IMG/VR virus record: IMGVR_UViG_3300020446_001245
Span: 1 to 28,629 of that record
Length of the DNA stretch: 28,629 bases
Strand: one strand, 5' to 3'
From: a virus
In this document: positions 1,533-25,609 of the stretch, in pieces
How positions within the stretch are numbered: the stretch's first letter is position 1
Layout of the letters: each line of letters opens with the position of its first letter
Notes under the pieces: generated by a model
Told to the model about the DNA's origin: nothing
What the model saw: only the letters and a program-made list of their open reading frames with translations
Databases searched by the model: none
Translations under genes and position numbers: made by a program

Positions 1533-1540
1533 TATTTATA
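1533..1540 (-). promoter_or_regulatory. T4-late-type promoter box TATAAATA before the SDR gene
   Basis: Minus-strand TATAAATA is followed by five T residues and then the ATG of the SDR gene. In T4 late promoters this box is the -10 element and RNA starts about six bases downstream, so a transcript from here would start at or beside the ATG. The TAA stop of the protease gene (1536-1538) lies inside the box. Short motifs of this kind occur by chance in AT-rich DNA. Confidence 0.4.
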
Positions 1541-3479
1541 GACTAAAATTACCAGATACGTTAGAACTGAATGCTTCTTCATCGTCCCAAAGTGGGCTAA
1601 AGAAATATTTATTATTTCCACCCCATATACTATCTTGATCATCCCATACAATATCAGTTGATACTGTAATAGTTCCTTTCATTGCACTATGAGCACTACA
1701 AATATAATAAAATGTACCAGGCTTTGTTGGTGTCCATGTAACAGTGCCACCACCACTAGCACCTTGTCCTGTAGCCGCTGGTGATGTAACTTGGTCTCCT
1801 GTTCCTGTTGTGGCCGCAGACTTAAAATACATTGGGTGTGATCCACTTGCATTATTGGTAATAGCAAGAGTATCACCAACTTTTATTGCTATAGAATCAT
1901 TATCGCCTGAGACAGATCCATTCCTATCTGTACCATTACTTAGTGTATATGCACTTGAACTATTATTTGTTGCATCAACTGTAAAAGATTGCGGTGTAAA
2001 TTTGCCAACATCATTGAGCAAGTCACTTTTTGCATTATTAACCATATATTGTTTAACTTGTGCTGGAGTAAGCATTGGATTTGCTTCTAGTATACAAGCC
2101 GCCATTCCTGCTACTTGCGGAGATGCCATACTTGTACCAGAAATTTTCATTAATCTATAACTTGCATCAAGAGGTGATGTTGGACCTCCTGCGGAAGCAA
2201 GTTTATCACTTGAACCACTAGCATTATCTGTACTTCCTACACTAATAATTTCTGTACCTGGTGCGTAAATACCAACTCCTGGACCAGCACAGCTTGATTC
2301 TGCTTTTTGTTCTTTTCCGTTTTTATATGTGTAATCTATATTACCAACCATAAATGCTTCTGTATCATAAGGTGAGCTACCTCTAAATAAATATTCTTGC
2401 CCACTACCAAAGTTTGCAGTGTCATCCCAGTTTGGACCACCGTCTACATCTATATAATAATAACTATTTCCTGCCGCAATACAAAATATAATACCAGCAT
2501 CTATACATTCTTGTAAGTCTGCATCAACACTTGCTACTCTAACATTAATTCTTCTTGTTAATCCTACTACAGGAACTACTCCAACATTTGCCCAAGCATT
2601 GTTATCACTACTGCCCCATTCGGACCATGTCCAAGAATTACCTCTAAATACACCCGAAGTTGGATCGGAACCTCTGTTTCCACCATATCCCCAACTTGCA
2701 TTTACCACAGTAGGATTTATCAAACCAGTTTTAGGATTTATTGGCTTGTTATTATGCCAACCTTTTATAACATCAAAGCAATCTGATACACTTATTCCAG
2801 TACCGCCATCTCCGGTACCTTCTAATCCATTTACTTTTACTGAATATATGTTTGCATCTCTTGCCCAACCTTGTGTTCGCCCTGCTACTGTACCTGCACA
2901 ATGACTACCATGCCCATCGTAATCTCTATTGTGATTAGCACTTTGTGAACCTGACACTCCTGATTCTGCATACCAATCTATATTTCTAATTCTTGATATT
3001 CCTGCACTATCGGTGAATTCTGGGTGATCTGTTTGCACTCCACTGTCTTGAATAACAACATCAACATCTTTACCAGTTAATGTATGTTTGAAATCTGTTG
3101 TTATAGTAGAAGTTCCTGATCCCCAAGGATCTGATGCTGATGCACCTCTAACAAGTCCCCAATTTAAATCAGAACTTACGCCTTGCGAAGTATCTTTTTT
3201 CCAAGAACCTGATTGCACTGCATTCAATCCAATTTCAATATCGCTTCTGTCTTGAGGAGGTATTTGTACATCTACAACTCTACTATCACCTCTAAGTGCA
3301 GTAGCTTCTGCGTCTGTTAGTGCATAATGTGTATTTCGTTTACTAAGTAATCTTGCATTTGCAACATCAACTGTTCTATTTGGAATATCACCTGCTCCAG
3401 TTGATGCTATCATTTCTGCATTAAATGCATCATAATCTACATCTTTTTTAAGTGTAACAATATACTCTTTCTCGCTCAT
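1536..3479 (-). CDS. subtilisin-like S8 serine protease with C-terminal cupredoxin domain, likely virion protein
   Basis: Residues 1-75 resemble an S8 prodomain (EYIVTLKKDVDYDAFN near the start). The catalytic domain spans about 100-490 with all parts intact: Asp145 in IQDSG, His190 in DGHGSHCAGTVAG, oxyanion Asn338 in AAGN and Ser450 in ISGTSMASPQVAG. Residues about 500-608 form a plastocyanin-like domain carrying the full type-1 copper set: His548 (SGSHPM), then Cys594, His597 and Met600 in YYICSAHSAM. A 40-residue acidic, aromatic tail follows. There is no secretion signal. A strong AAGGAGACTCC ribosome site precedes the ATG, and the gene follows the fibre gene by nine bases, which points to a particle-associated protein. 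A possible role is cleaving a virion or host-surface protein; the copper domain's role is unknown. Family calls are firm; location in the virion is inference. Confidence 0.88.
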   Translation of the reverse strand: MSEKEYIVTLKKDVDYDAFNAEMIASTGAGDIPNRTVDVANARLLSKRNTHYALTDAEATALRGDSRVVDVQIPPQDRSDIEIGLNAVQSGSWKKDTSQGVSSDLNWGLVRGASASDPWGSGTSTITTDFKHTLTGKDVDVVIQDSGVQTDHPEFTDSAGISRIRNIDWYAESGVSGSQSANHNRDYDGHGSHCAGTVAGRTQGWARDANIYSVKVNGLEGTGDGGTGISVSDCFDVIKGWHNNKPINPKTGLINPTVVNASWGYGGNRGSDPTSGVFRGNSWTWSEWGSSDNNAWANVGVVPVVGLTRRINVRVASVDADLQECIDAGIIFCIAAGNSYYYIDVDGGPNWDDTANFGSGQEYLFRGSSPYDTEAFMVGNIDYTYKNGKEQKAESSCAGPGVGIYAPGTEIISVGSTDNASGSSDKLASAGGPTSPLDASYRLMKISGTSMASPQVAGMAACILEANPMLTPAQVKQYMVNNAKSDLLNDVGKFTPQSFTVDATNNSSSAYTLSNGTDRNGSVSGDNDSIAIKVGDTLAITNNASGSHPMYFKSAATTGTGDQVTSPAATGQGASGGGTVTWTPTKPGTFYYICSAHSAMKGTITVSTDIVWDDQDSIWGGNNKYFFSPLWDDEEAFSSNVSGNFSL

Positions 3480-3488
3480 GGAGTCTCC

Positions 3489-5675
3489 TTAGTGTAAGTC
3501 TACCCAAGCACCGTTTGCATATCCTTGGAATTTATTTGTGGTTGAATTATATACCATATCACCATTTGCTGAAGCTAGAGCATCACGTTCTGTTGTTGTG
3601 AAGCTACAAAATCTTACTGGAGAACTTGTAATTACCACTGCATTTCCTGCTGTTACCTTTAAATTTGCATTAGCTTTAATTTCTGGATCATCTGTGCTAG
3701 TGCTTGTAAATCTATTTGCAGTAATAACATTAGTTACATTAAGGTTGTTTTCAACAGTTAAGTCACTGCTCATAGTTACTGCTGGAGTTATTGTTATACC
3801 ACTTGAATCTGAAGAGTCTAATACACTTGATGTAAACGTAAAGTTACCAAGTGTAGCTGGTTGTACTGCGGAATCAGCTTTTGTACCTTGTGCTGATGTT
3901 GCCGCATCTGTTATTCCGTAACCTGCAAGTGTAGTAGGAGTACTTGTTAATCTTGCCCATTGTATTGTACCATTTGTACCATCAATAACCAACGTACTAT
4001 CATCTGCAAATACACTACCAATAAAATTACTTGTTACAGATCCAACTGATAGGTTATCACTTCCGCCTGTTAATACAGTGCCATTAAGTTGAAGATAACC
4101 TTTTACAAATGTATTACCATCTTCTGCTACTTTGAATATATGATCTGCTTCTATTGTGGAACCTAAATTGTCTGGATCAACATTGTTATAGAGTCTAAAT
4201 GCACACGATGAATCTCCGCCATTACTATCGAGGAACATATTAATACTTTTTACACTGCTTAATACTGTGGTGTTGTTTGCTCCAAACTGAGTTGTAGTAA
4301 AGTTCAAATGACTTACAGCAGATCCACCCGATGCGGCAAATGTAATTCTGTTGCTTCCAGTTACTAAATCACCGCCTAGTACAGGAGAAGTATCGTTTGA
4401 AAGTTCAATATTAGCATTAACAGTAATGTTACCTTCAGCATCACTTGCAGTTGTAACATTTGTACCACCAATAATTTTGAAACTTTCGCCTGAATTAATA
4501 AGTCTTATTGCACTATCGTCAGCACCAACACCTATGTTGCCAATACCGCCAGAACCTCCTGATCCTACAGTGTCTGCGTCATTTACCCAAGCACTACCAT
4601 TATATTTTAGCACTTGTCCTGCTTGTGGATTGCTAGTAGTAACATTGGCTAAATCTTCTACATTATTAGGAGCAATATTTACTTTTCCTGCTACACCATC
4701 TACAAGAATTGTTGAATCATCTGCTACAAAAGTTCCTTGCATTGAAGCGGCAGTAAGTGATCCTGTAAATACACCACTACCTCTAACATCTAGAGCTTTT
4801 GCAGGAGCATCCGTTTTTATACCTAAATAACCAAAACGGTTAAAAACCATTGCATTGTCTGTGCCTGTAGCACCTGATTCATTGTATGTTAAAAATACAA
4901 TTCTTCCTGGCATAATACCATCGGCAATAGCAGATGTATACTTATCTGGGCCTAACTTAATAACTGCGGTATTTTCAAAACTATCACCGTCATAACCTCG
5001 AGCAGTAATATCTAACGCACCATCGCCTGCTTGTGAAACTGCTGGAACTGCCAACGTACCTCTTGATGAACTAGCAATTATATCATGTCCGCTTCCGCCT
5101 GATACAGCTCCGTTAATAATAATTTGAGGATTAGTAGCATCTTCAAGATCTAATTGCTTACTTTTCAAACTATTACTGCTAGTATCTACCATTGCATGGC
5201 TAGCACCAAACCATGTCGAAGCAATAACTCTATTATTTTGTCCGTCAATAATTATTGTAGAATCATCCCCGTATACTGATCCTTCAATGTCGCCGTCTAT
5301 ATTACCAGTAAATGTATTTGCTGTCATTGTGGTTGCACTTACGTTGCCACCAAATGATCCGTTTAAATTTACATCTAAACTAAGTGTCGCATTTATACCC
5401 CCAGTAATATTAATATCACCAGTACCGGTAATATCATAACTATTTAAATCTAAATTTCCGCCTAATTGTGGAGTAGTATCGTTAACTATATCTGCTAAAC
5501 CGCCACTTCCACCGCCCGTACCTTGGACTGCAACTCCTCCAGAAGTGGATCCATCCCCTATAAAAACAGGAGCAACACCGGCACTTGAATAGTCAGTGAC
5601 ATATATTGGTTCGCCTAATTCCGGGGTGTATGCGAGCCTTTCTGCGTTGGTCCCTCTTTTAATTCTCAAAGCCAT
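3489..5675 (-). CDS. large repetitive tail-fibre-like structural protein, 728 aa
   Basis: Probable receptor-binding or fibre protein of the particle. The N-terminus (MALRIKRGTNAERLAYTPEL, then PIYVTDYS and VFIGDGST) matches the short domain that opens many phage fibre proteins. The body is rich in Gly, Ser, Thr, Asn and Asp, with repeated motifs. A DDST(I/L)-x2-DG unit occurs at residues 133-150, 314-332 and 553-571, and an NDT(T/S)P-x-LGG-x-L unit at 65-76 and 427-437. GSAWV and GAWVD ends are typical of trimeric fibre modules. No chaperone or peptidase domain is visible at the C-terminus, which closes with GYANGAWVDLH. The start is supported by GGAGAAG upstream and by a TATAAATA late-type promoter at 5698-5705. 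The neighbouring protease gene lies directly downstream. The exact position of the protein in the tail cannot be told. Confidence 0.82.
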   Translation of the reverse strand: MALRIKRGTNAERLAYTPELGEPIYVTDYSSAGVAPVFIGDGSTSGGVAVQGTGGGSGGLADIVNDTTPQLGGNLDLNSYDITGTGDINITGGINATLSLDVNLNGSFGGNVSATTMTANTFTGNIDGDIEGSVYGDDSTIIIDGQNNRVIASTWFGASHAMVDTSSNSLKSKQLDLEDATNPQIIINGAVSGGSGHDIIASSSRGTLAVPAVSQAGDGALDITARGYDGDSFENTAVIKLGPDKYTSAIADGIMPGRIVFLTYNESGATGTDNAMVFNRFGYLGIKTDAPAKALDVRGSGVFTGSLTAASMQGTFVADDSTILVDGVAGKVNIAPNNVEDLANVTTSNPQAGQVLKYNGSAWVNDADTVGSGGSGGIGNIGVGADDSAIRLINSGESFKIIGGTNVTTASDAEGNITVNANIELSNDTSPVLGGDLVTGSNRITFAASGGSAVSHLNFTTTQFGANNTTVLSSVKSINMFLDSNGGDSSCAFRLYNNVDPDNLGSTIEADHIFKVAEDGNTFVKGYLQLNGTVLTGGSDNLSVGSVTSNFIGSVFADDSTLVIDGTNGTIQWARLTSTPTTLAGYGITDAATSAQGTKADSAVQPATLGNFTFTSSVLDSSDSSGITITPAVTMSSDLTVENNLNVTNVITANRFTSTSTDDPEIKANANLKVTAGNAVVITSSPVRFCSFTTTERDALASANGDMVYNSTTNKFQGYANGAWVDLH

Positions 5676-5697: not shown

Positions 5698-5705
5698 TAT
5701 TTATA
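5698..5705 (-). promoter_or_regulatory. T4-late-type promoter box TATAAATA before the fibre gene
   Basis: Minus-strand TATAAATA lies 22 bases before the ATG of the fibre gene, with GTAGGAGAAG between them as ribosome site. This is the expected geometry for a T4 late promoter (RNA start near 5692). A second, one-mismatch box, GATAAATA, sits immediately upstream. The match of box, spacing and a structural gene makes this the better of the two late-type boxes. Confidence 0.6.
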
Positions 5706-6969: not shown

Positions 6970-7269
6970 TTAGTTTGTATATTTCAAATGTGGACAAGCT
7001 AACATGAATAAACTCATTTCTTTTGTTTCTTCAAATCCTACTGTGTATATACTTTGAATTGAATCGTCAGCTTTTGACAAAGTTACGTTTTCACCTAAAA
7101 AATATCTACCAGATAAATTATCATTAATCCATTCAGATACGGCTGTTTCAATATTATATGTTCTTGGTAAATTTACAGTTTCAAAATCAGGAGGACAGAA
7201 ATTTAACCTTCTTATACCTAAAATATCAAATGGATTTGTTTTAATTTTTTTAAGCAACGGCTTCCTCAT
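6970..7269 (-). CDS. unknown protein, 99 aa
   Basis: Real coding sequence begins at the ATG at 7269, giving MRKPLLKKIKTNPFDILGIR and so on; the longer open frame to 7380 lies on top of the VWA gene and is shadow. The start overlaps the end of that gene by 20 bases, so translation is probably coupled; only a distant GGAA stands upstream. The protein contains RRLNFCPPDFETVNLP, an amphipathic helical segment (ETAVSEWINDNLSGRYFLG) and a C-terminal beta-like region ending in a Cys-Pro-His segment. I see no catalytic motif. Confidence 0.6.
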   Translation of the reverse strand: MRKPLLKKIKTNPFDILGIRRLNFCPPDFETVNLPRTYNIETAVSEWINDNLSGRYFLGENVTLSKADDSIQSIYTVGFEETKEMSLFMLACPHLKYTN

Positions 7270-8695
7270 AATGCACTGTTGTTCCAAATGGTGCTTGCAT
7301 TTCTTTGTCAGCATGACCATGAATAACAAATAATGTATCACAATATTCAGTTTCACCCCAAGAATCAAAAGGATATCCATCTGTAAACATAATTAATTTT
7401 TTAGGTTCTATATTACGTTCTCTCATATATCTCCAATTTGTCATAAAGTCGGTTCCTCCACCGCCTACAACTTTGTAATTTGCTATATCATCCGCATCGT
7501 CTGCCGTAAATACTGCTTCATTATAAACTTTTGTATCAAAACACCAGATTCTAATTTTAAAATCTTTGTATTCTTCCATTATGCCTTTTACTTCACTTAA
7601 GAAGTCTTTTGCTTGATCGTCACCAATAGAGCCACTCATATCTATACTGATGCAAATATCGATAGTTTCTTCAACTTGCATACCTGGAAGTATTGCACCT
7701 GTATGCCAACCTTTTCTGTTTGGACGGATAAAAGTGTAATCACTTTTAATTATACTCTGTATCTGTTGACGTAGTATTTGTCTCCAATTCATTTTAGGTT
7801 CAGTAAGTTCCTTAATCATTCTAGCAATTTCGCCAGGAACATTACCTGCACCAGCACTTTGAGCCGCGGCTAAAACTGCCTCTTTAATTTCATCTTTTAT
7901 AGCTTGTTTCGCCTCTTCTGAAAGAGCTTTTGATTCGCCTTTAGTTGATCCATCTTTATTGTCATCGTTACTATTACCAGGACCTTCTCCCCATTGAAAA
8001 TGTTCATCTAAAAGTTCTCCTAATTGATCAATATCAATCTTTTCTGCATTTTCAAATAGCTCATCGTATATTTCTTCGCTAGTCCATGATTCATATTTCA
8101 TATCTTGGTAACATTCGATGAGTTTTGGTTTTTCACCAATTCTATCTCTAACAAGTAAATTGTTTACTTTATAATCACAAGCAATATTATAAAGTTTAGG
8201 ATGCCTATCTTCTCTTCTTGTTAAGTGATCAAACACCATATGTAATATTTCATGTGCAATAACAAATTCTATTTCTTTATTGCTCAAAGCATTAAAAAAT
8301 TGTGTATTAAAATAAAGAAAACGACCATCTACAGCCGCAGTTGGTATATGTTTATCAGCCGCTTTAATCCTTAACCTAGTGGCCATATTTCCAAAGAAGG
8401 GATGTCTTAGTAGTAGTCCAACACGAGCAGTAATTATTCGATCAAGCACGTCTTTACGCATCACTTCAAGATCTTCATCCGAAATATTAGGATCTGGTTC
8501 CCAGTTCTTTTTCTTAAGATCTTTCTTTACTTTATCTACGGCTTTGCCTAAGTCTTTAACTTTTTTACCAATTTTTGGAGCAGAACCCGGAACAGGCATA
8601 TGATTTACATCTGCATAATCACCATCCATGCCATGTTTAATTATTTCTTCAACCATAGCATTTTCTTCATTTATTTGCTTTTGTGTCAGTGCCAT
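7250..8695 (-). CDS. VWA-like metallopeptidase-domain protein, partner of MoxR ATPase
   Basis: Two parts are visible. The N-terminal half (about 75-200) has a zinc-peptidase-like HEILH (His148, Glu149, His152) inside IAHEILHMVFDHL, as in the DUF2201-type putative metallopeptidases. The C-terminal part (about 340-480) is a von Willebrand A-like domain whose metal site is seen as IDMSGS (Asp352, Ser354, Ser356), GGGGTD (Thr415, Asp416) and FTDG (Asp439). A hydrophilic Asp/Asn/Lys linker lies between (about 235-290). Such proteins usually work with MoxR-type AAA ATPases as chaperone-like pairs that insert metals or remodel targets, and a MoxR gene lies directly upstream. Ribosome site GAGGGAAG and a sigma70-like promoter at 8724-8752 precede it. 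The target in a phage is unknown. Confidence 0.85.
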   Translation of the reverse strand: MALTQKQINEENAMVEEIIKHGMDGDYADVNHMPVPGSAPKIGKKVKDLGKAVDKVKKDLKKKNWEPDPNISDEDLEVMRKDVLDRIITARVGLLLRHPFFGNMATRLRIKAADKHIPTAAVDGRFLYFNTQFFNALSNKEIEFVIAHEILHMVFDHLTRREDRHPKLYNIACDYKVNNLLVRDRIGEKPKLIECYQDMKYESWTSEEIYDELFENAEKIDIDQLGELLDEHFQWGEGPGNSNDDNKDGSTKGESKALSEEAKQAIKDEIKEAVLAAAQSAGAGNVPGEIARMIKELTEPKMNWRQILRQQIQSIIKSDYTFIRPNRKGWHTGAILPGMQVEETIDICISIDMSGSIGDDQAKDFLSEVKGIMEEYKDFKIRIWCFDTKVYNEAVFTADDADDIANYKVVGGGGTDFMTNWRYMRERNIEPKKLIMFTDGYPFDSWGETEYCDTLFVIHGHADKEMQAPFGTTVHYEEAVA

Positions 8696-8723
8696 TTCGT
8701 ACTTCCCTCTTTGTTATATGTAT

Positions 8724-8752
8724 AATATAGCATTATTTAATCTATATGTCAA
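8724..8752 (-). promoter_or_regulatory. sigma70-like promoter for the VWA gene
   Basis: Minus strand: -35 TTGACA (8747-8752), 17-base spacer ending in TGC (extended -10), -10 TATATT (8724-8729). The expected RNA start is near 8717, about 22 bases before the ATG at 8695. It lies just downstream of the intrinsic terminator of the MoxR gene, so the VWA gene is a separate transcription unit. Confidence 0.8.
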
Positions 8753-8761
8753 CCTAAAATA

Positions 8762-8794
8762 GAAAAAATGGGCAGTAAAATACATTACTGCCCA
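8762..8794 (-). terminator. intrinsic terminator after the MoxR gene
   Basis: On the minus strand TGGGCAGTAA pairs with TTACTGCCCA (10 base pairs, six-base loop, 8769-8794) and is followed at once by TTTTTTCT. It starts 13 bases after the MoxR stop codon. It is the only clear rho-independent terminator I found in the window. Confidence 0.9.
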
Positions 8795-8807
8795 AATATA
8801 TGACTCA

Positions 8808-9896
8808 TTAAACGTTTTGGGCCGCCTTGATATATTTCCCATAACGGTCATGAAACTCATCAAAACAAGCAACTGCATCCGGATCAATAGGAAGATTGTA
8901 TTGGGTAAGAGCTAATTTAATGCCCATTACTACCAATTCAGTCTCAAAATTATCCATAGCAAACCTTAAAAAGTTATTAACTTTATCGTCAAACTTTTTA
9001 TCATTTTTATCGCTTGCTTCTTTAAGCTCGTAGCAAAGAGATACAGTTAAGGAATACTTTGCACTGATTTCTTCTGTATTAAGCTCTTTTACTTTGCCTG
9101 CCAAAACATCACTTGGATTTGGCATATTTGCCGCTACTTTTCTATGAGCCATAAACTTTACAGCCAAACCTTCACCTACTGAACCTGCTACTAGGTCTGT
9201 AGTTGTAGCTTCGTCTGGATCATCTTCTTCAATAAGTTCACTAACAAAACTCCACGAACGTGGTGTAGCAAATGAACGACTTGGACTTTTTGGATCAAAA
9301 TCATATAAGTCCTGTTTTGCAAACTGCAAATAACCAACTACATCTTGATGTATTGTGTTAATTACTGCCCAAGCAAACCAATCATCAAAATTAACTTCAA
9401 GTTCTAAGTGTACAAATCGATTAGCTAACGGTGAAGGCATTCTATAAGTAACACCTTTATCAGCTTCTCTATTACCTGCCGCAACAATAATTACATTATC
9501 AGGTAATACATATTGACCTACACGTCTGTTCAAAATTAACTGATAAGCCGCCGCTTGTACTGCCGGAGCCGCAGAGTTCATCTCATCAAAAAAGACAACA
9601 ATATTGTCGTATTTCGACGCCATTTCTTCGTCTGGCAATTCACTAGGTGCACCCCAAACCATTTTGCCTTGATTAGCATCAAAGTATGGAATACCTTTAA
9701 TATCAGTAGGTTCCCAAAGTGATAGTCTAATATCTATTAAATGGCTATTAGGCATTTCGTCTGTAACCTGCCTAACAATATCGGATTTACCAATACCTGG
9801 AGGTCCCCAGATAAAAATTGGTCTTTTCTTTCCAAATGCCCTACGAATGCTTTTCTTAGCTTTATTAGGGCTAACTGTTCGAACTTGTGTGTCCAT
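8808..9896 (-). CDS. MoxR-type AAA+ ATPase
   Basis: ATP-driven chaperone-like enzyme of the MoxR family. Visible motifs are Walker A GPPGIGKS (31-38), Walker B VVFFDE (100-105, Asp104 and Glu105), sensor-1 Asn142 in VAAGN, and an arginine-finger type SPLANRF (155-161). A variable helical lid follows to residue 362. It is encoded immediately before the VWA/metallopeptidase gene, the classical partner arrangement. Unlike most neighbours it is an independent unit: its own sigma70-like promoter (9939-9967), ribosome site AGAGGAAT, and an intrinsic terminator after its stop. Whether it acts on host or phage proteins is not visible. The family assignment is firm. Confidence 0.9.
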   Translation of the reverse strand: MDTQVRTVSPNKAKKSIRRAFGKKRPIFIWGPPGIGKSDIVRQVTDEMPNSHLIDIRLSLWEPTDIKGIPYFDANQGKMVWGAPSELPDEEMASKYDNIVVFFDEMNSAAPAVQAAAYQLILNRRVGQYVLPDNVIIVAAGNREADKGVTYRMPSPLANRFVHLELEVNFDDWFAWAVINTIHQDVVGYLQFAKQDLYDFDPKSPSRSFATPRSWSFVSELIEEDDPDEATTTDLVAGSVGEGLAVKFMAHRKVAANMPNPSDVLAGKVKELNTEEISAKYSLTVSLCYELKEASDKNDKKFDDKVNNFLRFAMDNFETELVVMGIKLALTQYNLPIDPDAVACFDEFHDRYGKYIKAAQNV

Positions 9897-13726: not shown

Positions 13727-14623
13727 TTAAGTTCCCCAGGCGTTTCCGAATAAGCTGATGTGTAGCCTTGGCGTAAATCTCCATCCTTTTTCCATACAGA
13801 TGTTCGCCACCTCTTGTACGTTGAGGTTGTATTCTTCACTCCTGCCACCCAACGGCATAAGGTATACAGGACACTCCACACCTTCAGCACGATACTCTTC
13901 GACAGCTCTGCCAGCTTCTTCAATGTCAGTACGATCAGCGACAACGAACTTGAGATAAATGTCACTACCGTCCACAAGACTATAATTGTGAGCAACTTTA
14001 GGTTTAATAGCAGTATCCCAAGGTTCTCCACTAACACTAAGTTTCGGGGAGCATGACCATGTGACATTAATCCTGTCGCTATCGTTGAGATAATCGAATA
14101 AATCATTTTTAAGAAATTGTGTAGTATTTGTTTCAAACGTAACATTTTTTAAATCCTGCATTCGTGGATGTTCAAATAATTCAACGTATAGTCGTTGCCA
14201 CGCCAACAACGGTTCGCCTCCAGTCATTATTAAGTGTATGTCCTGGCCGTTATCTTGCACCCACTTTCCATTAGGTGTAAGACTTAATAAATGTTCTACT
14301 ACTTCATCAACAGTTGCTTGCCTGTTAAAGTGCTTAAATTCTGGATATATACTTGCATATGTATCACAGCCTGTGTGTATAATTGGTAAATCTTCAAATC
14401 TATTTGTTTTTTTATGTACTTCGTTGTCTAATAAACCTTGTACTTCTTGATTGTGAATGACGCCTTGTTTTTGTTTGACATCACGCATTGGCTCGCTTCT
14501 ATCCAGTCCAAAGTTCATGCAACGAAAGTTACAACCAAATGTACGAAGGAATACACTAGGTACTCCTACAAACTTGCCTTCACCTTGTACACTATAAAAT
14601 GCTTCGCTATACCTTAGTTTCAT
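13727..14623 (-). CDS. queE: 7-carboxy-7-deazaguanine synthase (QueE-like radical SAM enzyme)
   Basis: Radical SAM enzyme that converts 6-carboxy-tetrahydropterin to 7-carboxy-7-deazaguanine. Visible features are the QueE-type start (YSEAFYSVQGEGKFVGVPSV), the first two cluster cysteines (Cys31 and Cys35 in FGCNFRC), the SAM-binding TGGEPLL (134-140), and the family ending PRLHISLFGNAWGT. The third cluster cysteine is not at its usual place, which is Phe38; the next candidate is Cys86 in IHTGCDTYAS, giving CX3CX50C. Known QueE enzymes vary in this loop (for example CX14CX2C in Burkholderia), and phage relatives seem to share the TGCD(S/T)YAS segment, as far as I recall. The start overlaps folE by four bases (ATGA), so both are translated together for the deazaguanine pathway. 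Confidence 0.88.
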   Translation of the reverse strand: MKLRYSEAFYSVQGEGKFVGVPSVFLRTFGCNFRCMNFGLDRSEPMRDVKQKQGVIHNQEVQGLLDNEVHKKTNRFEDLPIIHTGCDTYASIYPEFKHFNRQATVDEVVEHLLSLTPNGKWVQDNGQDIHLIMTGGEPLLAWQRLYVELFEHPRMQDLKNVTFETNTTQFLKNDLFDYLNDSDRINVTWSCSPKLSVSGEPWDTAIKPKVAHNYSLVDGSDIYLKFVVADRTDIEEAGRAVEEYRAEGVECPVYLMPLGGRSEEYNLNVQEVANICMEKGWRFTPRLHISLFGNAWGT

Positions 14624-15351
14624 CGTGGAGCAAACTCTTGTTGTAGTTTAATATTATCAAAGAACTCCTTTTTTGTACCAGGATCGTCTTTAAAAGCACC
14701 TTTAAGCACACTTGTTTGTGTCAAACTACTATGTGCCATTATGCCTCTATTTTCACAACAACCATGTGTTGCTTGAATATAAACACCTAAGTTATCTGCA
14801 CCTGTCGCCTTTTGTATTTGCTTTGCAATATCGCCTGCAAGTTCTTCTTGTAGTGTTCCACGTCTAGCACACCATTGTGCAATTCTTGTATATTTACTCA
14901 AGCCTATTAGCTTGTCTGCGGCAATAATACCAATATATGCTATACCTGCCACTGGTTGGTGATGATGTGAACATACACTTTTTAGTTCACTTCTAACAAC
15001 CAACATACCTTCATATCGATCTTCATCGTGATTAGGAAACGCTGTAGCCTTAGGTTGTGGAAAGTAACGCCCGCTCATAAGTTCGTTTATGTACATTTTA
15101 GCAAGACGCTTTGCAGTACCTTCACTATTAGGATCATTATCTGTATCTATAATCAATGTTTCAAGTACATCTTGAAACTTATAACTTAGTTCATTTTGTA
15201 TTTCTTGTAATTCAAATTCACTAATGTGTTCACTAATATTATCATTTGCAAAAAAGCGAACATTATTTTTACGAAGTCTTTCACGTACCACTTCGCTAAC
15301 TTTTACCGGATCTACATTATCTGTATCCAGTCCTTCTATAGTATTTGTCAT
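14620..15351 (-). CDS. folE: GTP cyclohydrolase I (FolE)
   Basis: Opens the imidazole ring of GTP to give 7,8-dihydroneopterin triphosphate, the first step towards 7-deazaguanines and folate. The zinc and catalytic residues are visible: Cys127, His129 and His130 in VCSHHHQPVAG, and His196 and Cys198 in ATHGCCENRG. GLSKYTRI (150-157) and QEELAGDIA fit the family's conserved core. The length (243) is near E. coli FolE (222) with a longer N-terminus. It is the first gene after the promoter at 15394-15422, with CGGAG as ribosome site, and leads directly into queE. This placement argues for a role in DNA base modification rather than folate supply. Confidence 0.92.
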   Translation of the reverse strand: MTNTIEGLDTDNVDPVKVSEVVRERLRKNNVRFFANDNISEHISEFELQEIQNELSYKFQDVLETLIIDTDNDPNSEGTAKRLAKMYINELMSGRYFPQPKATAFPNHDEDRYEGMLVVRSELKSVCSHHHQPVAGIAYIGIIAADKLIGLSKYTRIAQWCARRGTLQEELAGDIAKQIQKATGADNLGVYIQATHGCCENRGIMAHSSLTQTSVLKGAFKDDPGTKKEFFDNIKLQQEFAPR

Positions 15352-15846: not shown

Positions 15847-16078
15847 CTTTCCCTCCAAGTGCTTCAAATGTTAATTTTTTGTCATGCTCCCTCACATATT
15901 CGTCTTCACCTGCATACGTACTGCAACTTTTTAATTGACGTTCAACGTGCCACAAGATTTGATATAAATCTTGCTTTGCTCCCCAAGTGTTGAATCCGTC
16001 CATGTATGGATCGTTAGCGGCTCGACTAATTTTATTTATTTCATTAATTATCTGTTCCATATTCCAATCTATAATCAT
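15812..16078 (-). CDS. unknown protein, 88 aa
   Basis: Probably helical: MEQIINEINKISRAANDPYM, then GFNTWGAKQDLYQILWHVER and a charged C-terminal part (EDEYVREHDKKLTFEALGG). No family recognised. The ATG at 16078 overlaps the heme oxygenase stop in an ATGA junction, so that start is preferred to the internal one. The 3' end overlaps the CDGSH-like gene and contains its ribosome site. Confidence 0.6.
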   Translation of the reverse strand: MIIDWNMEQIINEINKISRAANDPYMDGFNTWGAKQDLYQILWHVERQLKSCSTYAGEDEYVREHDKKLTFEALGGKDELRMRKVANR

Positions 16079-16608
16079 TGTTCTAATTGTTCAAACATTT
16101 TCATTGCAAATTCAAAGCATCTGTTAGCTTCAGGCGCCATTCCATCATGTAATCTTTCTCTTACATCACTTATAATTTTTTCTGGATTGTTGAAATCATA
16201 CACAGTTCCTTTTCCAGGGGCACGTTTTTTAATCATTTGTCCGCCATGCAATTCACCAAAATGTCTTACATAAATATGAGCTAATAATCCTTCATTATCT
16301 AACTTTGTTACATAATCTACATATTCAGGAACAACATCGCATAACTGTTCTCCATTTCGTTCAATTCCGTGTTCGTCTTCTAGTTCTTCCATATCTGCAC
16401 GGAAACCAGGAGCTCTACATATATCTTCAATACCATCAAGCACACCTGCTGTTCTGGCAACACTTTCCAAAGCCGCATATTGAACATATTGATTATAAAG
16501 GAATGTATGATATTCATGTGGTGGCATTCCTTTTATTAATTTTCTAGCTACTACTTTTCTTTCAGCTTTTTGATGGTTTTCCCATGTAAGTTCTTTTAAT
16601 TTGCTCAT
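16075..16608 (-). CDS. ho1: heme oxygenase
   Basis: Cleaves heme to biliverdin, iron and CO, using reduced ferredoxin in bacteria and phages. The proximal heme ligand is probably His12 in ENHQKAER. The distal helix is seen in YVRHFGELHGGQMIKK (113-128), whose glycines match the G-x3-GG pattern of the family. The length of 177 is short compared with cyanobacterial HO1 (about 240) and lacks the C-terminal extension. Heme oxygenase is known from marine T4-like phages, often with a bilin reductase (pebS or pcyA), but no reductase gene is seen in this window. The role could be bilin or iron supply. It is coupled to neighbours by four-base overlaps. Confidence 0.85.
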   Translation of the reverse strand: MSKLKELTWENHQKAERKVVARKLIKGMPPHEYHTFLYNQYVQYAALESVARTAGVLDGIEDICRAPGFRADMEELEDEHGIERNGEQLCDVVPEYVDYVTKLDNEGLLAHIYVRHFGELHGGQMIKKRAPGKGTVYDFNNPEKIISDVRERLHDGMAPEANRCFEFAMKMFEQLEQ

Positions 16609-17977: not shown

Positions 17978-18252
17978 TATATATACCCTAATGCTTCCAT
18001 ATGTCCACGTAGTTTTTCCATATTTTCCAAAACACCTGGCCAATCTTCATTTTGGATCATTTCTTGAATTTCTCTACAATCATCAAGCATTTCAGGACGC
18101 TCAGGCCATTCGTCGATATCATTTAGAACGTGTTTTGCAGTATCTTCAAACCACATAATTCCTTCTAAAAATTCTCCTTCGTCTAAATATTCAATTCCAC
18201 GTAATACCATCCAATAGATATTATCTTGTTCTTTTAATTCACTAGAATGCAT
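17977..18252 (-). CDS. unknown acidic protein, 91 aa
   Basis: Helical, Glu-rich protein with several Trp: WMVLRGIEYLDEGEFLEGIM, WFEDTAKHVLNDIDEWPERP, then a helix EMIQNEDWPGVLENMEKL. AGGAGT within the end of galE gives a strong ribosome site. The pattern of paired helices suggests a TPR-like or scaffold-type small protein, without firm support. Confidence 0.58.
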   Translation of the reverse strand: MHSSELKEQDNIYWMVLRGIEYLDEGEFLEGIMWFEDTAKHVLNDIDEWPERPEMLDDCREIQEMIQNEDWPGVLENMEKLRGHMEALGYI

Positions 18253-19114
18253 TTTTACTCCTTTCCAAATTATACTGGTCTAAACACATATCTTCAATAG
18301 ATTTTGTTAAAGTAACAAAATTAGATAGTTCATCTACTATACTTATAACTGCATCTCCTTCTCTTCTAGGAGCTTCAACAATTTTCAATTTTTTACCTGT
18401 AACCTTTTGCATTGTATCTAACACTTCTCTTACAGAAAATCCAGTATTACTTCCTAAACATTCATAAGGAGTATTTTGTGGACCTGTCTCTACTGCTTTT
18501 ACTATTGCATTTGCCAAGTCTACTACATGAATATAATCACGTATGCAAGTGCCATCTCTTGTGTCATAATCTGTTCCATAAACTTTTATTTCTGGTAATC
18601 TTCCAACAGAAGCAAGAGAAGCAACACGGATAAGATGAGTAGCATCACCCAACTGACGGTTAACTCCGTCAGTGCCGCTAACGTTGAAGAATCTAAATAT
18701 GGTATAACCATTTGCTTTCTCCTTAATTACATCTTCTGCACCAACTTTGCTCCTTGCATATGGAGATGCCATTTCCCAAGCACTACTTGTACTTGCAAAT
18801 AAAAAATGATCTGTATCTATATTGTCAATCATATTTGCGGTGCCCATTACATTCACACGATAGTATTCTGTAGGTTGTTTAATACTTTCTGGAACTACCG
18901 CTTTACCGGCTAAATGAATTACTGCATCATAACTTTTTCTAGGCAAAATACCAGTTACGTCAATATTTTCATGTTTATGCATGAAATGTTCAACATCATT
19001 ATGTTCACCATGAATATTAATATCCCAGCCTGTAACTGTATGCCCTTTTTCAGCAAGTAATTTAACTACATGACTGCCAATATATCCGTTACAACCTGTT
19101 ACTAATATTTTCAT
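18242..19114 (-). CDS. galE: GalE-like UDP-sugar 4-epimerase
   Basis: Extended SDR that interconverts UDP-glucose and UDP-galactose or related sugars with tightly bound NAD. The cofactor motif TGCNGYIG is at 6-13 and the catalytic set is Ser/Thr in ASTSS (107-111), Tyr119 and Lys123 in YARSK. The C-terminal YGTDYDTRDGTCIRDYIHV is the classical GalE sugar-binding segment. The length of 290 is shorter than the usual 330-340, so the substrate domain is trimmed. ATGA overlap with the gene before it. Together with the nearby glycosyltransferase and the ugd/pmm-like genes at 24857-26734 it suggests phage control of surface sugars or of DNA or protein glycosylation. Confidence 0.85.
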   Translation of the reverse strand: MKILVTGCNGYIGSHVVKLLAEKGHTVTGWDINIHGEHNDVEHFMHKHENIDVTGILPRKSYDAVIHLAGKAVVPESIKQPTEYYRVNVMGTANMIDNIDTDHFLFASTSSAWEMASPYARSKVGAEDVIKEKANGYTIFRFFNVSGTDGVNRQLGDATHLIRVASLASVGRLPEIKVYGTDYDTRDGTCIRDYIHVVDLANAIVKAVETGPQNTPYECLGSNTGFSVREVLDTMQKVTGKKLKIVEAPRREGDAVISIVDELSNFVTLTKSIEDMCLDQYNLERSKNAF

Positions 19115-19584
19115 GTTGCAAACTCAAATAAATTTGTGTCATAAACTTTGCTTGGCTTTTCTAAACGTTTTTTTGAAACTTGTTTATTTAATAAAGGGCG
19201 TGGATTTTCTGCTAGAATTGCATCACGTTCTCTATTACTAAGAAAGTTATCAGCATATTGTTTGCCATAAGAATCCCAACGTTCGTTATATTCGTCAGTA
19301 TAATCTCTTACACAAATAGTGACATTGTTACGTTGAATATTCAATCGATTTTCTTTCAATTCTTTGCGTAGTTGTTTAGCCGACCATCCATCATACTTGT
19401 GTGTCCATCCTTCCATTCCTTCTACTTGTCTTGGAATACGATCACCTGTTCCCATTCCCCATTTTAAAACTTGTTGTGTATCAATAATTGCATATAGATA
19501 ATTATGTATACCAAGTTGCTCCATTTCAGTCTTAAACTTTGCTGGTGAAGCATATTTTGCTAAAGGAAAGAAATAGTTGTTCAT
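19111..19584 (-). CDS. unknown protein, 157 aa
   Basis: N-terminal YYLYAIIDT-like stretch (NYLYAIIDTQQVLKWGMGTG) followed by DRIPRQV and a long basic helix (SAKQLRKELKENRLNIQRNN). The YLYAI, LKWG and DRIPR spacing is vaguely like a degenerate GIY-YIG nuclease core, but the catalytic Arg and Glu are not convincing, so I leave it unknown. A TAATG junction joins it to the glycosyltransferase gene and an ATGA overlap to galE. Confidence 0.6.
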   Translation of the reverse strand: MNNYFFPLAKYASPAKFKTEMEQLGIHNYLYAIIDTQQVLKWGMGTGDRIPRQVEGMEGWTHKYDGWSAKQLRKELKENRLNIQRNNVTICVRDYTDEYNERWDSYGKQYADNFLSNRERDAILAENPRPLLNKQVSKKRLEKPSKVYDTNLFEFAT

Positions 19585-20750
19585 TAGTATTTTGTCTCCG
19601 CTACATGATCTCTGTATCGATTTGTATCCCTACGCCATTGTTCACCGTTGCCTTGCATAATATCAATATATCGATCAATAGTTGCACTAGTCCAATCACT
19701 AATTTTGCCAATATCTCTATGTGGAGTTTGTACCAAGTGTCCTAATTTATTAAAAGCATCAGTAATGCTCCAAGGAATATACATACGTTCATGACAGTTT
19801 GCAAATATTTCTGGAAAACTTCTATATGCAGGAAATAATACGTTACAACCCAAAGCATCTGCTTCACTTACAGTATTACTTGTCCAATCTTGTAATGCAC
19901 AATTAAATAATACTTTACTGCTATTTAAAATATTGTAATAGTCATTTTTCTTTTGATTTTCAAATATTTCAATAACACCTCTGTCTGCAAGTTCTCTTGC
20001 ACGTTCGACATATTTCGGATTATTACTTCTTAGTGGTCCACCTTGTACAATAGCAAATTTCATACCATCTACAAATTCATGCTTTTCTGCAAGATCCATA
20101 AAAAAGTCTGGTTGCTTTTCTTGATCAAATCTAGCCGCAAAAACTATTCTATTATCACGTTCTGCCCAAGGTTTAATTTCACCTACTCTTAGCTGAACTT
20201 CAAGTTTATCAAAAGCTAGTCCACTTATGTTATAGATTGGTGCTTTCCAATTTGCAATTTTCATATGTGCAACCATTTCTTCATTACTTGCTAATACGCC
20301 TGTAACAAACTCATTGCACATTTCTTCATACAAACTCATCCACTTGCTCATGCCCCAAACGTGTACAAAATCATCTGGGTCAACTGCTTGTGCTAAACAA
20401 CGGATCCATACTTTGGGTCTATCCTCCGCTGGTATTTGATCCATAATATACGGCAATGACTCCATGCCAGGTTGAAACATATCTTCAAAAAAGATAACAT
20501 CTTCTCCTGTTACTTCACCGTTACGCATCATTTGTACGAGATTCATCATTTGCGACATGGAAAAATAACTTCTTCCATGTGCATCTAATACTTGTCCAAC
20601 TTGTATAGACTTTGTATTATCTATTGTTGTGCCTGGCACACTTAACCAGTCAATATTACGCCTTTGAAAAGTCCTACGAGACCATTCTTCTAATTGTAAT
20701 GTATATCTGCCTTCATAAGGCTCTAACCCCATATAAAACAGTTTTCTCAT
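19584..20750 (-). CDS. glycosyltransferase, GT-B fold (GT4-like)
   Basis: Likely transfers a sugar from a nucleotide-sugar donor. The C-terminal domain shows the GT-B donor half: IVFAARFDQEKQPDFFMDLA, a hinge, YYNILNSSKVLFNCALQDWT, and the donor-site Glu in VSEADALGCNVLFPAYRSFP (SEADALG replaces the common E-x7-E motif). The N-terminal domain is less clear and rich in Met and Asp. The preferred start is ATG at 20750 (MRKLFYMGLEPYEGRYTLQL), which forms a TAATG junction with the gene before it; the ORF extends further to 20789. The acceptor (host surface glycan, DNA or protein) is unknown. Confidence 0.78.
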   Translation of the reverse strand: MRKLFYMGLEPYEGRYTLQLEEWSRRTFQRRNIDWLSVPGTTIDNTKSIQVGQVLDAHGRSYFSMSQMMNLVQMMRNGEVTGEDVIFFEDMFQPGMESLPYIMDQIPAEDRPKVWIRCLAQAVDPDDFVHVWGMSKWMSLYEEMCNEFVTGVLASNEEMVAHMKIANWKAPIYNISGLAFDKLEVQLRVGEIKPWAERDNRIVFAARFDQEKQPDFFMDLAEKHEFVDGMKFAIVQGGPLRSNNPKYVERARELADRGVIEIFENQKKNDYYNILNSSKVLFNCALQDWTSNTVSEADALGCNVLFPAYRSFPEIFANCHERMYIPWSITDAFNKLGHLVQTPHRDIGKISDWTSATIDRYIDIMQGNGEQWRRDTNRYRDHVAETKY

Positions 20751-20938
20751 TATCGCCTTCCTCTGTTGCGGTTTTTGGCACGTATCCAATTTTTATACTT
20801 TTGGAAAGCTTGCCAAACCCTAGCATCTGACTTATACAAGTCTGCTTCGTTAAATGGATAACCTTCAGTTCTGCAAAAGTTATGTAGCTCTTCAAGATCG
20901 TTAAAAATTTTATTTACTACCGGATTTTTTATACTCAT
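20750..20938 (-). CDS. unknown small basic protein, 62 aa
   Basis: Short, with AAGGA about nine bases before the ATG at 20938; upstream in-frame codons to 20998 lie inside the QueD-like gene and lack a ribosome site. It contains LEELHNFCRTEGYPFNEADL and a C-terminal basic helix (FQKYKNWIRAKNRNRGRR) that suggests nucleic-acid contact. No family recognised. Confidence 0.58.
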   Translation of the reverse strand: MSIKNPVVNKIFNDLEELHNFCRTEGYPFNEADLYKSDARVWQAFQKYKNWIRAKNRNRGRR

Positions 20939-22290: not shown

Positions 22291-23748
22291 TTATTTCTCC
22301 TCAAATAATTCTGAAAATTTTGTGCTTGCGTTTACTGTTTTTTTGCCTACATTTAGCCTTGTGCCTATAACTTGCATCCAAAACTTTGAATAATCTTGTA
22401 TTAGTTTTAGACTTTTTTGTCTGTCTTTTAAACTAAAAATTTCTTCTACTACTTGTTTAAATTCTACTCTGTTAAATCTCTCGTCTATAAGCATATATGG
22501 ATATTTACCATTATCATATTCTCTATTGGCTCTTTGTGTACTTTCTATGTGCATCCAAACATTGTGTCCCATTTGTAAAGCATAACTAAAACTATCCCAG
22601 CTTGTTTTACCTTCTTTACCAACTTTATTCAAATCACCTGGTTTGTAAATGCAAATGTCTTTCATGGTGCAATGTTTACTTATAGGAGAATCTTCAAATG
22701 CTTCAAAAACTTCATCATTAACAACACCATTGCTAAACAATCTCGTATCAGCAGAATATTTTTTATCATCAGCACTTGGACCCATCATATAACTCCATTT
22801 ACCTCTATCCTCAATACGTATAGTGTGATAAACTTGCCCATTTGCAGTTGCCAAGAATGGTGATGCACAATCATATGTAATCATGAAATTTGGATTATGA
22901 TGTTTTCTGACAGCTCTTTGTATGTCTGTTAGCAAAACTGCCCATTCTAATTTACTTGTTCCGAGAAAATGCATCACATCATGCAGACCTTGTTCAAGTA
23001 ATCCGTCATGTATTTGATTTACTAACCTATGTAATATAAGATGAACATCACACATATTTTGTCCACCCATTGCCCAGCCATTAAAGTGTGTGTCTGGATA
23101 CTTTGCAGGATCACAATAGTCTTTAAATTCTTCATACCAGCTATCTGCATCTTTATGATTTGTACCTTGCAAAACATTTAAGACTTTGAAATTTCCACGT
23201 CTATTCTTCATATAATAGCCAGCGTTAATATGTGTTGCATCTACCGCATCTTGATAACTGTAAATACCACTTGCTTTTGCCGCTTTAGGATCTTGAAATG
23301 TCCAAGTTGGAATATCCAACATCATTCCATAATCCATATATTCTTCCATCCAATTTACTACAAGTTCTCTTTTCTTTTGTGCTTTTGGACAATTAGGATT
23401 TTTCCAATCACCTTCCCAAAGACCTTTAGCAATTTGAAAGCCTCCTGAATCTCCTAATAGCCACGAAGTATTACGATCACGTTTTCTTATCATATCTTCT
23501 TTTTCAACGTGCTTGTTTATATCTAAATCTGCATGACCTGCACTATATAAAGCCCATTTATATTGAAACGCACCATCTTTTGGATTCAAAAAATTTAACC
23601 CTTCTACAGTATTCAATCCTGCAGGAACTCTATTTGGATCAACATATTCTCCATACCTTTGCTTGCCTATAAATGTTGCATAGAATCCACTTATACTTGG
23701 TAAAAATACTGCATAGTCTTTTTGTTCTGTAGTTAAGTCATTATTCAT
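22291..23748 (-). CDS. dpdA: DpdA-like DNA 7-deazaguanine transglycosylase
   Basis: TGT-superfamily enzyme that exchanges guanine in DNA for a 7-deazaguanine base. TGT landmarks in order are DSGGFQ (100-105, Asp100), MMLDIPT (Asp145), NVLQG (191-195), GWAMGG (224-229), HFLGTS (260-265) and TYDCASP (292-298, Asp293, the candidate nucleophile). The usual zinc CxCxxC site of tRNA TGT is not seen, as in phage DpdA proteins. The length of 485 is close to phage DpdA. ATG at 23748 is chosen because the longer frame starts at TTG; it overlaps nothing functional but sits at the end of the membrane-protein gene. With folE, queE and the QueD-like gene it forms the final DNA-insertion step. Confidence 0.85.
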   Translation of the reverse strand: MNNDLTTEQKDYAVFLPSISGFYATFIGKQRYGEYVDPNRVPAGLNTVEGLNFLNPKDGAFQYKWALYSAGHADLDINKHVEKEDMIRKRDRNTSWLLGDSGGFQIAKGLWEGDWKNPNCPKAQKKRELVVNWMEEYMDYGMMLDIPTWTFQDPKAAKASGIYSYQDAVDATHINAGYYMKNRRGNFKVLNVLQGTNHKDADSWYEEFKDYCDPAKYPDTHFNGWAMGGQNMCDVHLILHRLVNQIHDGLLEQGLHDVMHFLGTSKLEWAVLLTDIQRAVRKHHNPNFMITYDCASPFLATANGQVYHTIRIEDRGKWSYMMGPSADDKKYSADTRLFSNGVVNDEVFEAFEDSPISKHCTMKDICIYKPGDLNKVGKEGKTSWDSFSYALQMGHNVWMHIESTQRANREYDNGKYPYMLIDERFNRVEFKQVVEEIFSLKDRQKSLKLIQDYSKFWMQVIGTRLNVGKKTVNASTKFSELFEEK

Positions 23749-23752
23749 ATTA

Positions 23753-24094
23753 TTAACCAAAATCCATACGCCAAGGTAGTATGGTATAGCCTAGTGGTGC
23801 TAGTAAGTATTCTTCGAAACAGTAAAATGCTATCAATGCTAATATAGTCCTCGCCCACCAAGGCAACTTGCTTACTTGATTTCTTAATGGGGTCATAACC
23901 CAAAATATAAAACGTGAAATATTTCCCCAGAACCAATCCCCAATATTAAATGGTGGTGTCTTCCATAAGATAATTGGAACTATTAACCACCATAGCCATA
24001 GCGGATAATCATCATCTGGTGTGTCAAGATATATTGCTAACGCAACCATTCCTAATAGGTATAATCCTATGTATTTTCTTAGGTGTTCTAGCAT
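23753..24094 (-). CDS. small membrane protein, 113 aa
   Basis: Hydrophobic segments at about 8-23 (YIGLYLLGMVALAIYL), 32-44 (LWLWWLIVPIILW) and 80-98 (ARTILALIAFYCFEEYLL), Trp-rich throughout. It is likely in the inner membrane. It shares its ATG base with the stop of the clamp gene (TAATG). No family recognised. Confidence 0.68.
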   Translation of the reverse strand: MLEHLRKYIGLYLLGMVALAIYLDTPDDDYPLWLWWLIVPIILWKTPPFNIGDWFWGNISRFIFWVMTPLRNQVSKLPWWARTILALIAFYCFEEYLLAPLGYTILPWRMDFG

Positions 24095-24841: not shown

Positions 24842-24870
24842 ATTATACTGCCTAAGTTATTGTTTGTCAA
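24842..24870 (-). promoter_or_regulatory. perfect-consensus sigma70-like promoter for the sliding clamp
   Basis: Minus strand: -35 TTGACA (24865-24870), 17-base spacer, -10 TATAAT (24842-24847), RNA start near 24835 and a ribosome site before the ATG at 24822. The -35 is inside the last codons of the UDP-sugar dehydrogenase gene. Confidence 0.88.
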
Positions 24871-25609
24871 GGTTTTTTCTTATTTTGTTATTGTATTTTT
24901 TTACTGTTGTAAGTATATTTAGATCATTATCTAAATTATTTGCTGTTTTTAATATAGCATTTATATCCTTAGGAAAACAATGTCCTCCATATCCTCTTTC
25001 TTCTGAAATGTAAGTATGACTTGATCCTATACGTTCGTCTATGCTAATTAGTTCTCTTACAGTTTCATAATTAATATTAGAAGCTTGACATAAATCATAT
25101 ATCTCATTGAAAAATGCAACTTTTGTTGCAAGGAAACTATTCCTAAAATACTTTACAAATATTAATTCTTTTGGATCTGCAGAAAAAATATTTATATTCC
25201 CCATTGCATTTAAAAATATGTCTTGCCAAAAACCTACACTATCACCCCCCATAAGAATAGTTTTGTTTTTTCTAAAATCATCTAACGCCGAATCTGCTCT
25301 TAAAAACTCAGGTGAAAAACTTACATTTTGCCATAAACTTTTTATATATTCCCATCCTTCTATACTAATAGTGCTTTTTATTAGTATTGGCACATCTTTG
25401 GTATCATTAAGTACATCATATACATTTTTCATGTCACAACTACCATCCTTAGCTTGAGGTGTTGCAACACAAACAATTATTGCATCGCACAGACGTAAAT
25501 CATCATATTTTTCTTTTGCTGGATCGTTGACTAAAACAGTATAGTAATCCTTTAGAGCTTTGTAGTGTGCTTGACCAACATACCCAAAACCTGCGATTCC
25601 TATTTTCAC
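24857..25609 (-). CDS. short UDP-glucose/GDP-mannose 6-dehydrogenase-like protein
   Basis: Oxidises a nucleotide sugar to the uronic acid using NAD. NAD-binding GFGYVG is at 7-12, SPEFLR at 99-104, the helix with Lys153, Asn157 and Lys163 (VKYFRNSFLATKVAFFNEI), and the catalytic Cys211 in GYGGHCFPKD. At 250 residues it stops just after the central domain and lacks the C-terminal UDP-binding domain (usual length about 390-440); catalysis may still need a second protein. The start is GTG at 25609, in a TAGTG junction with the preceding gene. It clusters with phosphomannomutase- and cytidylyltransferase-like genes. Confidence 0.82.
   Translation of the reverse strand: MKIGIAGFGYVGQAHYKALKDYYTVLVNDPAKEKYDDLRLCDAIIVCVATPQAKDGSCDMKNVYDVLNDTKDVPILIKSTISIEGWEYIKSLWQNVSFSPEFLRADSALDDFRKNKTILMGGDSVGFWQDIFLNAMGNINIFSADPKELIFVKYFRNSFLATKVAFFNEIYDLCQASNINYETVRELISIDERIGSSHTYISEERGYGGHCFPKDINAILKTANNLDNDLNILTTVKKYNNKIRKNLDKQ

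Follow-up and report, generated by a model that had tools for sequence, protein, structure and literature searches.

A minus-strand gene at 1536-3479 of the DNA analysed here encodes a putative subtilase, with an apparently active protease domain, that carries a cupredoxin with a predicted type-1 copper site in a loop near its C-terminus. The DNA is a stretch of 28,629 nucleotides from an IMG/VR virus contig, referred to in its entirety as the window. The open reading frame runs from ATG to stop over 647 residues, and the opposite (plus) strand is stop-rich. A preliminary description of this DNA had proposed the pairing of a protease with a copper domain in this gene, and our analysis confirms it down to the individual residues (Asp145, His190, Ser450, His548, Cys594, His597 and Met600). 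The idea of a one-off fusion did not survive: the window protein belongs to a large family of marine-phage proteins in which, judging from alignments and a protease tree, the domain has been gained or lost repeatedly at different places. The gene and the parts of its product are as follows.

1536..3479, minus strand: subtilase gene with inserted cupredoxin, of the phrog_9158 type (647 aa; phrog_9158 E 3.5e-103)
3195..3479, minus strand: N-terminal domain, residues 1-95, probable I9-type propeptide / intramolecular chaperone (conserved in 28 homologues)
2013..3074, minus strand: Peptidase_S8 catalytic domain, residues 136-489 (Pfam; PDB fold matches)
3045..3047, minus strand: catalytic Asp145 (invariant in the family alignment)
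2910..2912, minus strand: catalytic His190 (invariant in the family alignment)
2466..2468, minus strand: oxyanion-hole Asn338, in an AAGNS motif (invariant in the family alignment)
2130..2132, minus strand: catalytic Ser450, in GTSMASP (invariant in the family alignment)
1662..1982, minus strand: cupredoxin domain, residues 500-606, in the C-terminal protease loop (Pfam, AF2 and PDB matches)
1836..1838, minus strand: predicted copper ligand His548 (conserved in homologous copies)
1698..1700, minus strand: predicted copper ligand Cys594 (conserved in homologous copies)
1689..1691, minus strand: predicted copper ligand His597 (conserved in homologous copies)
1680..1682, minus strand: predicted copper ligand Met600 (conserved in homologous copies)
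1539..1652, minus strand: conserved C-terminal tail, residues 610-647 (DxxDSIWGGNNKYFFSPL...), in which the protease family sequence resumes past the insert

Residues 136-489 match Peptidase_S8 (PF00082) with an E value of 3e-31 and a score of 109 bits against a curated cut-off of 21.8, and the fold matches of this domain in the PDB include proteinase K, keratinase and aqualysin. Asp145, His190, Asn338 and Ser450 are invariant across the 35 homologues of the family alignment, and the catalytic triad is complete, as first described. Ahead of the catalytic domain, residues 1-95 are predicted to follow the strand-helix-strand-strand-helix-strand order of I9 propeptides. Matches to Inhibitor_I9 itself are weak (5 of 28 homologues, best E 0.004, and none for the window member), and an I9-type propeptide is the likely identity of this region. 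No signal peptide or other secretion signal is apparent on the phage protein.

The way in which the two domains are joined becomes clear from comparison with relatives. In those without the copper domain, the protease core ends about 35 residues past the catalytic Ser and is followed directly by a tail of the kind DDY..SRSIKGGNNRFLVNPF; in the clade of the window protein, the cupredoxin sits between ..LLND and the family tail DDQDSIWGGNNKYFFSPL. Because the same tail continues the core in the domain-less relatives, the cupredoxin is a loop insertion and not an appended domain. A simple C-terminal fusion was accordingly rejected, and the earlier picture of a copper domain following the protease is right as to its presence but not as to its being joined at the end. 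The equivalent loop holds other inserts in relatives L008-L017. Judged from their coding sequences, both domains are under purifying selection, with dN far under dS in each and dS near saturation.

By profile matching and structure prediction, the inserted domain is a cupredoxin fold that lies outside the plastocyanin and amicyanin equivalogs. Residues 523-606 match Copper-bind (PF00127) with E 1e-7 and 32.5 bits against a curated cut-off of 21.2, and an AF2 model of the cupredoxin alone, built from 50 diverse copies, reached a pLDDT of 97.7. All of the PDB matches at the top of the list are copper proteins of the cupredoxin fold (best E 5e-5), comprising rusticyanin, amicyanin, plastocyanin, copper nitrite reductases and multicopper oxidases. 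The NCBIfam equivalog cut-offs for plastocyanin and amicyanin were not reached (26.1 against 87.85 bits and 25.1 against 110.2 bits, respectively). An identity with the auxiliary gene PetE was rejected on these scores and because PetE is a separate gene. The ligand loop reads Cys-x2-His-x2-Met (CxxHxxM), the spacing found in amicyanin.

Across 110 non-redundant copies from all sources, with a median identity of about 40%, His, Cys, His and Met are all kept in 103, a count biased by the patterns used for retrieval from viral contigs and cells, which contained the ligand Cys. Among copies retrieved via the protease only, 17 of the 18 complete non-redundant ones have all four ligands; in the protease-retrieved copies these ligands rank 1, 5, 6 and 8 of 106 columns by conservation. 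In a further alignment (A4), the invariant residues are limited to H, P, Y, C, H and M. The outliers are seven copies, one of them truncated, and some persist with YSAM, HNTM or QSTM. Both counts speak against a chance motif, which was rejected, and the copper ligand set is as intact as originally reported. We take this conservation in sequence as an argument for bound metal: with its ligands intact across very divergent copies, the predicted copper site is probably used. Taken together with the constraint on both domains, this agrees with the earlier suggestion that both parts are intact and so probably in use.

The combination recurs widely. A search of viral contigs returned 80 protease homologues, and at least 566 cupredoxin copies were confirmed in viral contigs. 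In PHROGs, phrog_9158 has no function assigned and its profile spans protease and cupredoxin; the match of the window protein extends over 2-483, and the cupredoxin alone matches at profile 592-695 with E 1.5e-22. The point of insertion varies. In the window protein, L002, L004-L006, S-H9-1 and S-CAM4, the cupredoxin occupies the C-terminal loop or comes right after the core, and in L038 and L040 it is far towards the C-terminus. It is found between the catalytic His and Asn in L082, L088, L129 and L131, between Asn and Ser in L042, between Asp and His in L173, and before Asp in L169 and likewise in L117 and L125, both of which have a second copy later in the protein. Separate insertions or moves are needed to account for such diverse positions. 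The protease tree was built quickly and includes some long branches. Explaining on it which members have the domain takes 8 gain/loss changes, of which strong branches force at least 6, and the placement labels take 12; the change count does not separate gains from losses. By this evidence, the cupredoxin has been gained or lost repeatedly on the protease, at different places. The 22 records found via the protease (about 2.7 Mb, some of them near-duplicates) contain 23 cupredoxin copies, of which 10 are within the protease gene or adjacent to it, a location that accounts for about 6.5% of the bases; these figures are meant as a description and not as a test.

A sequencing artefact was rejected, as the same architecture is present in L002-L006, L097, L098 and isolates. 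The parent contigs of L004, L097 and L098 each contain another cupredoxin match, partial or weak, in a giant open reading frame of about 4,600 residues (G002:28809-28973, G021:91319-91480 and G022:22735-23055, respectively). A separate clade of proteins of 735-744 aa (L087, L108, L118, L141 and L165) keeps the cupredoxin and has Glu at the position of the catalytic Asp, and some of its members have Trp or Phe at that of the catalytic His; these are likely to be dead proteases with an intact copper site.

The cupredoxin is not confined to proteases. It ends tail proteins matching phrog_677 (baseplate wedge / tail fibre connector), and it is present in two copies in the proximal tail fibre of P-SSM2 and in one copy in the long tail fibre proximal subunit of S-SCSM1; giant proteins of 3.7-5.2 thousand residues also carry it. 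In marine Flavobacteria, it forms the end of lipoprotein-like proteins that also have DUF285 and Ig-like domains, and it occurs within T9SS-sorted proteins with cadherin and thrombospondin repeats, and these carriers were found on contigs of up to 1.9 Mb. Tail fibre, hypothetical protein and Ig domain are among the names often given to carriers. Because fibres and flavobacterial proteins bear the cupredoxin without the protease, its role is separable from proteolysis, and its distribution argues for a job that belongs to cell or particle surfaces. The cellular relatives (L175-L253) come mostly from marine Flavobacteria and in some cases from Prochlorococcus single cells, for example L217 and L224; the Prochlorococcus relative is a small secreted protein with plastocyanin-type spacing.

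Evidence on the location of the protein comes largely from phage S-SCSM1. GenBank notes describe as 'virion protein' both its protease homologue, S-SCSM1_228, which has C-terminal LamG lectin domains and no cupredoxin, and its cupredoxin fibre, S-SCSM1_231. Mass spectrometry of CsCl-purified S-SCSM1 virions detected 45 proteins (PMC9602691). The record has 48 'virion protein' tags, which cover three unexpected proteins named in that paper and omit several predicted structural genes. Because these unexpected proteins are tagged and several predicted structural genes are not, the tags likely mark detection by mass spectrometry, with an inexact correspondence. Relatives of the protease have tail/baseplate and fibre genes as neighbours. 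The tagged homologue and these tail neighbours support a virion location for the window protein, and with the fibre-like neighbour in the window itself they lend indirect backing to the location proposed at the outset. Upstream of the protease gene, the window contains the following features.

3485..3490, minus strand: Shine-Dalgarno-like AAGGAG, 5 nt ahead of the protease ATG (read from the sequence)
3489..5675, minus strand: upstream fibre-like gene, 728 aa, with a weakly Mtd_N-like N-terminus (PF18454 E 0.004, below cut-off)
5698..5705, minus strand: TATAAATA, T4-late-promoter-like, ahead of the fibre gene (suggestive by position only)

The AAGGAG overlaps the stop codon of the fibre-like gene, which thus ends within the ribosome site of the protease gene, so that the translation signals of both genes overlap. 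A fibre-like gene also lies immediately upstream of the protease in L002-L006 and L039. TATAAATA is not enriched in the window (6 copies against 6.0 expected). The 'virion-type block' of the preliminary description fits the protease gene and the fibre-like gene but not the surroundings at large, since the other window genes with a recognised function are mostly concerned with replication, nucleotides, queuosine/folate and sugar nucleotides.

Several of these other genes are worth recording. Positions 13727-14623 and 14620-15351 encode a QueE-like radical SAM protein and GTP cyclohydrolase I. A protein of 489 aa at 22291-23760 without a family match resembles, by eye, a tRNA-guanine-transglycosylase (LGDSGGFQI); these three may point to 7-deazaguanine DNA modification. 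Sugar-nucleotide genes at 24857-26734 and 18242-20789 (UDP-glucose dehydrogenase, phosphomannomutase-like, cytidylyltransferase, epimerase) include a weak glycosyltransferase match. A heme oxygenase (PF01126, E 5e-15) is found at 16075-16608. At 7250-9896, a MoxR-type AAA ATPase adjoins a DUF2201 metallopeptidase-VWA protein, which PHROGs labels as an HNH endonuclease without support from the Pfam match. The DNA polymerase fragment at 27290-28612 has its closest relatives in Sinorhizobium/Agrobacterium jumbo phages, with an identity of about 50% or less, unlike the protease, which among named isolates is closest to cyanophage proteins.

We give about an even chance to the reading that the window protein is a self-maturing protease displayed on the particle, with a copper-loaded (copper-stapled) accessory surface module. 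More specifically, the gene product would be a serine protease of the proteinase K type that is associated with the tail and translated together with the fibre-like gene. The N-terminal I9-like propeptide would probably aid folding, and the protease would cleave itself and remain on the particle. The cupredoxin, plugged into a loop near the protease end where relatives hold other inserts, would be a type-1 copper domain that acquires its copper probably after lysis, in seawater. It may act as an accessory surface module in a role comparable to that of the binding domains of phage fibres and hydrolases, so that an adhesive function is inferred by analogy. The protease would then clip host-surface proteins, and the metal-stapled beta-sandwich would hold or position it at the host surface and resist proteolysis. 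A surface job is proposed because the module is common to fibres, phage proteases and flavobacterial surface proteins, and the two domains are thought to act at the same place because the module has repeatedly been joined to the protease.

The most interesting rival, though we consider it unlikely, is a copper switch or self-digestion shield. In the cytoplasm of the host, which is poor in copper, the cupredoxin would be apo and loose; after lysis it would lock on encountering copper, activating the protease outside the cell or shielding the particle from its own protease. Insertions in several protease loops, some of them between catalytic residues, and the conservation of all four predicted ligands are in keeping with this, as is the lack of an apparent signal peptide, by which the protein would be made in the cytoplasm; however, the domain also occurs on proteins without a protease, so switching cannot be its general job. 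A second role for proteolysis, on which we place similarly little weight, is in assembly: as the virion matures, the protease would trim the fibre encoded next to it or further tail proteins, with the cupredoxin docking it on the fibres. In the relatives noted above, a fibre-like gene comes directly before the protease gene, and the overlapping translation signals in the window point the same way, but the broad proteinase-K-like fold equally suits extracellular digestion.

That the enzyme is released at lysis rather than bound to the particle, and digests surface proteins or debris, seems rather improbable. Soluble proteinase-K-like enzymes are usually secreted; against this stand the 'virion protein' tag of the S-SCSM1 homologue and the tail and fibre neighbours of the relatives. 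We regard as very improbable an ordinary Ig-like spacer that keeps cupredoxin residues and binds no copper in nature. A few ligand-less copies do persist and some carriers are annotated as Ig proteins, but the complete ligand sets of 103 of the 110 copies, at a median identity of about 40%, speak against a mere spacer. An exchange of electrons between the copper site and the host surface or reactive species would suit a predicted type-1 site with a strictly conserved Met, whose best fold matches are electron carriers; yet no redox partner domain or gene was found nearby, and the fibre and lipoprotein carriers are without a redox enzyme, so we deem such a redox role highly improbable.

A broader proposal is, in our judgement, doubtful. 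Marine phage particles would carry blue-copper proteins on their outside, the cupredoxin would be a general seawater surface module of fibres, proteases and flavobacterial surface proteins that controls protease activity or targeting, and infection would depend on dissolved copper. If the sites hold copper, virions would make up a pool of particulate marine copper that has so far gone uncounted, and the supply of metal could influence how stable phages are or how they attach. With the copies counted above, hundreds of marine viral contigs encode a cupredoxin of this kind, and its recurrent association with a single protease family points towards a function for which cultured cyanophages (S-CAM4, S-H9-1) offer a test system.

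Each of the two domains is already known, and two-domain proteins are already present in deposited cyanophage genomes, where they are named hypothetical protein, peptidase or subtilisin-like protease. Sullivan et al. (2010) mention an S8 peptidase in P-HM1/P-HM2 and the plastocyanin PetE (PMC3037559); we found no mention of the cupredoxin module there, and nothing on it in a viral nirK paper, a jumbo-phage review and a methylophage paper. A search of the open literature, with most subscription papers outside its coverage, returned nothing on the module and no paper on cupredoxins in phage tail proteins.

Close counterparts are the S8 proteins of the Synechococcus phages S-CAM4, S-H9-1 and ACG-2014e, which have the same two domains and are 28-33% identical to the window protein over about 90% of its length. 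The cupredoxin stands at the very C-terminus in S-CAM4 and S-H9-1, whereas in the window protein it is inserted ahead of the conserved tail, and the records of the three phages do not name the copper domain. With S8 subtilases of the proteinase K/aqualysin group, the window protein shares the fold, the Asp/His/Asn/Ser set, GTSMASP and a probable propeptide; it differs in having no apparent secretion signal, in its long family-specific inserts, in the cupredoxin of its C-terminal loop and in the location of its gene near tail-fibre genes. The beta-sandwich and the His...Cys-x2-His-x2-Met set are those of type-1 cupredoxins (amicyanin, plastocyanin, rusticyanin and copper nitrite reductase domains), but here they form a module of virion-type and cell-surface proteins and not a stand-alone periplasmic electron carrier. 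Cyanophage PetE, an auxiliary metabolic gene product, likewise places a cupredoxin fold in marine T4-like phages, as a separate small photosynthesis protein unlike the window module; S-SCSM1 has both, PetE as a gene of its own (SSCSM1_151) and the fibre that bears a cupredoxin. Like the Ig-like accessory domains of phages, the cupredoxin is a small mobile beta-sandwich on tail proteins that is swapped between genes, and it differs from them in its conserved predicted mononuclear copper site.
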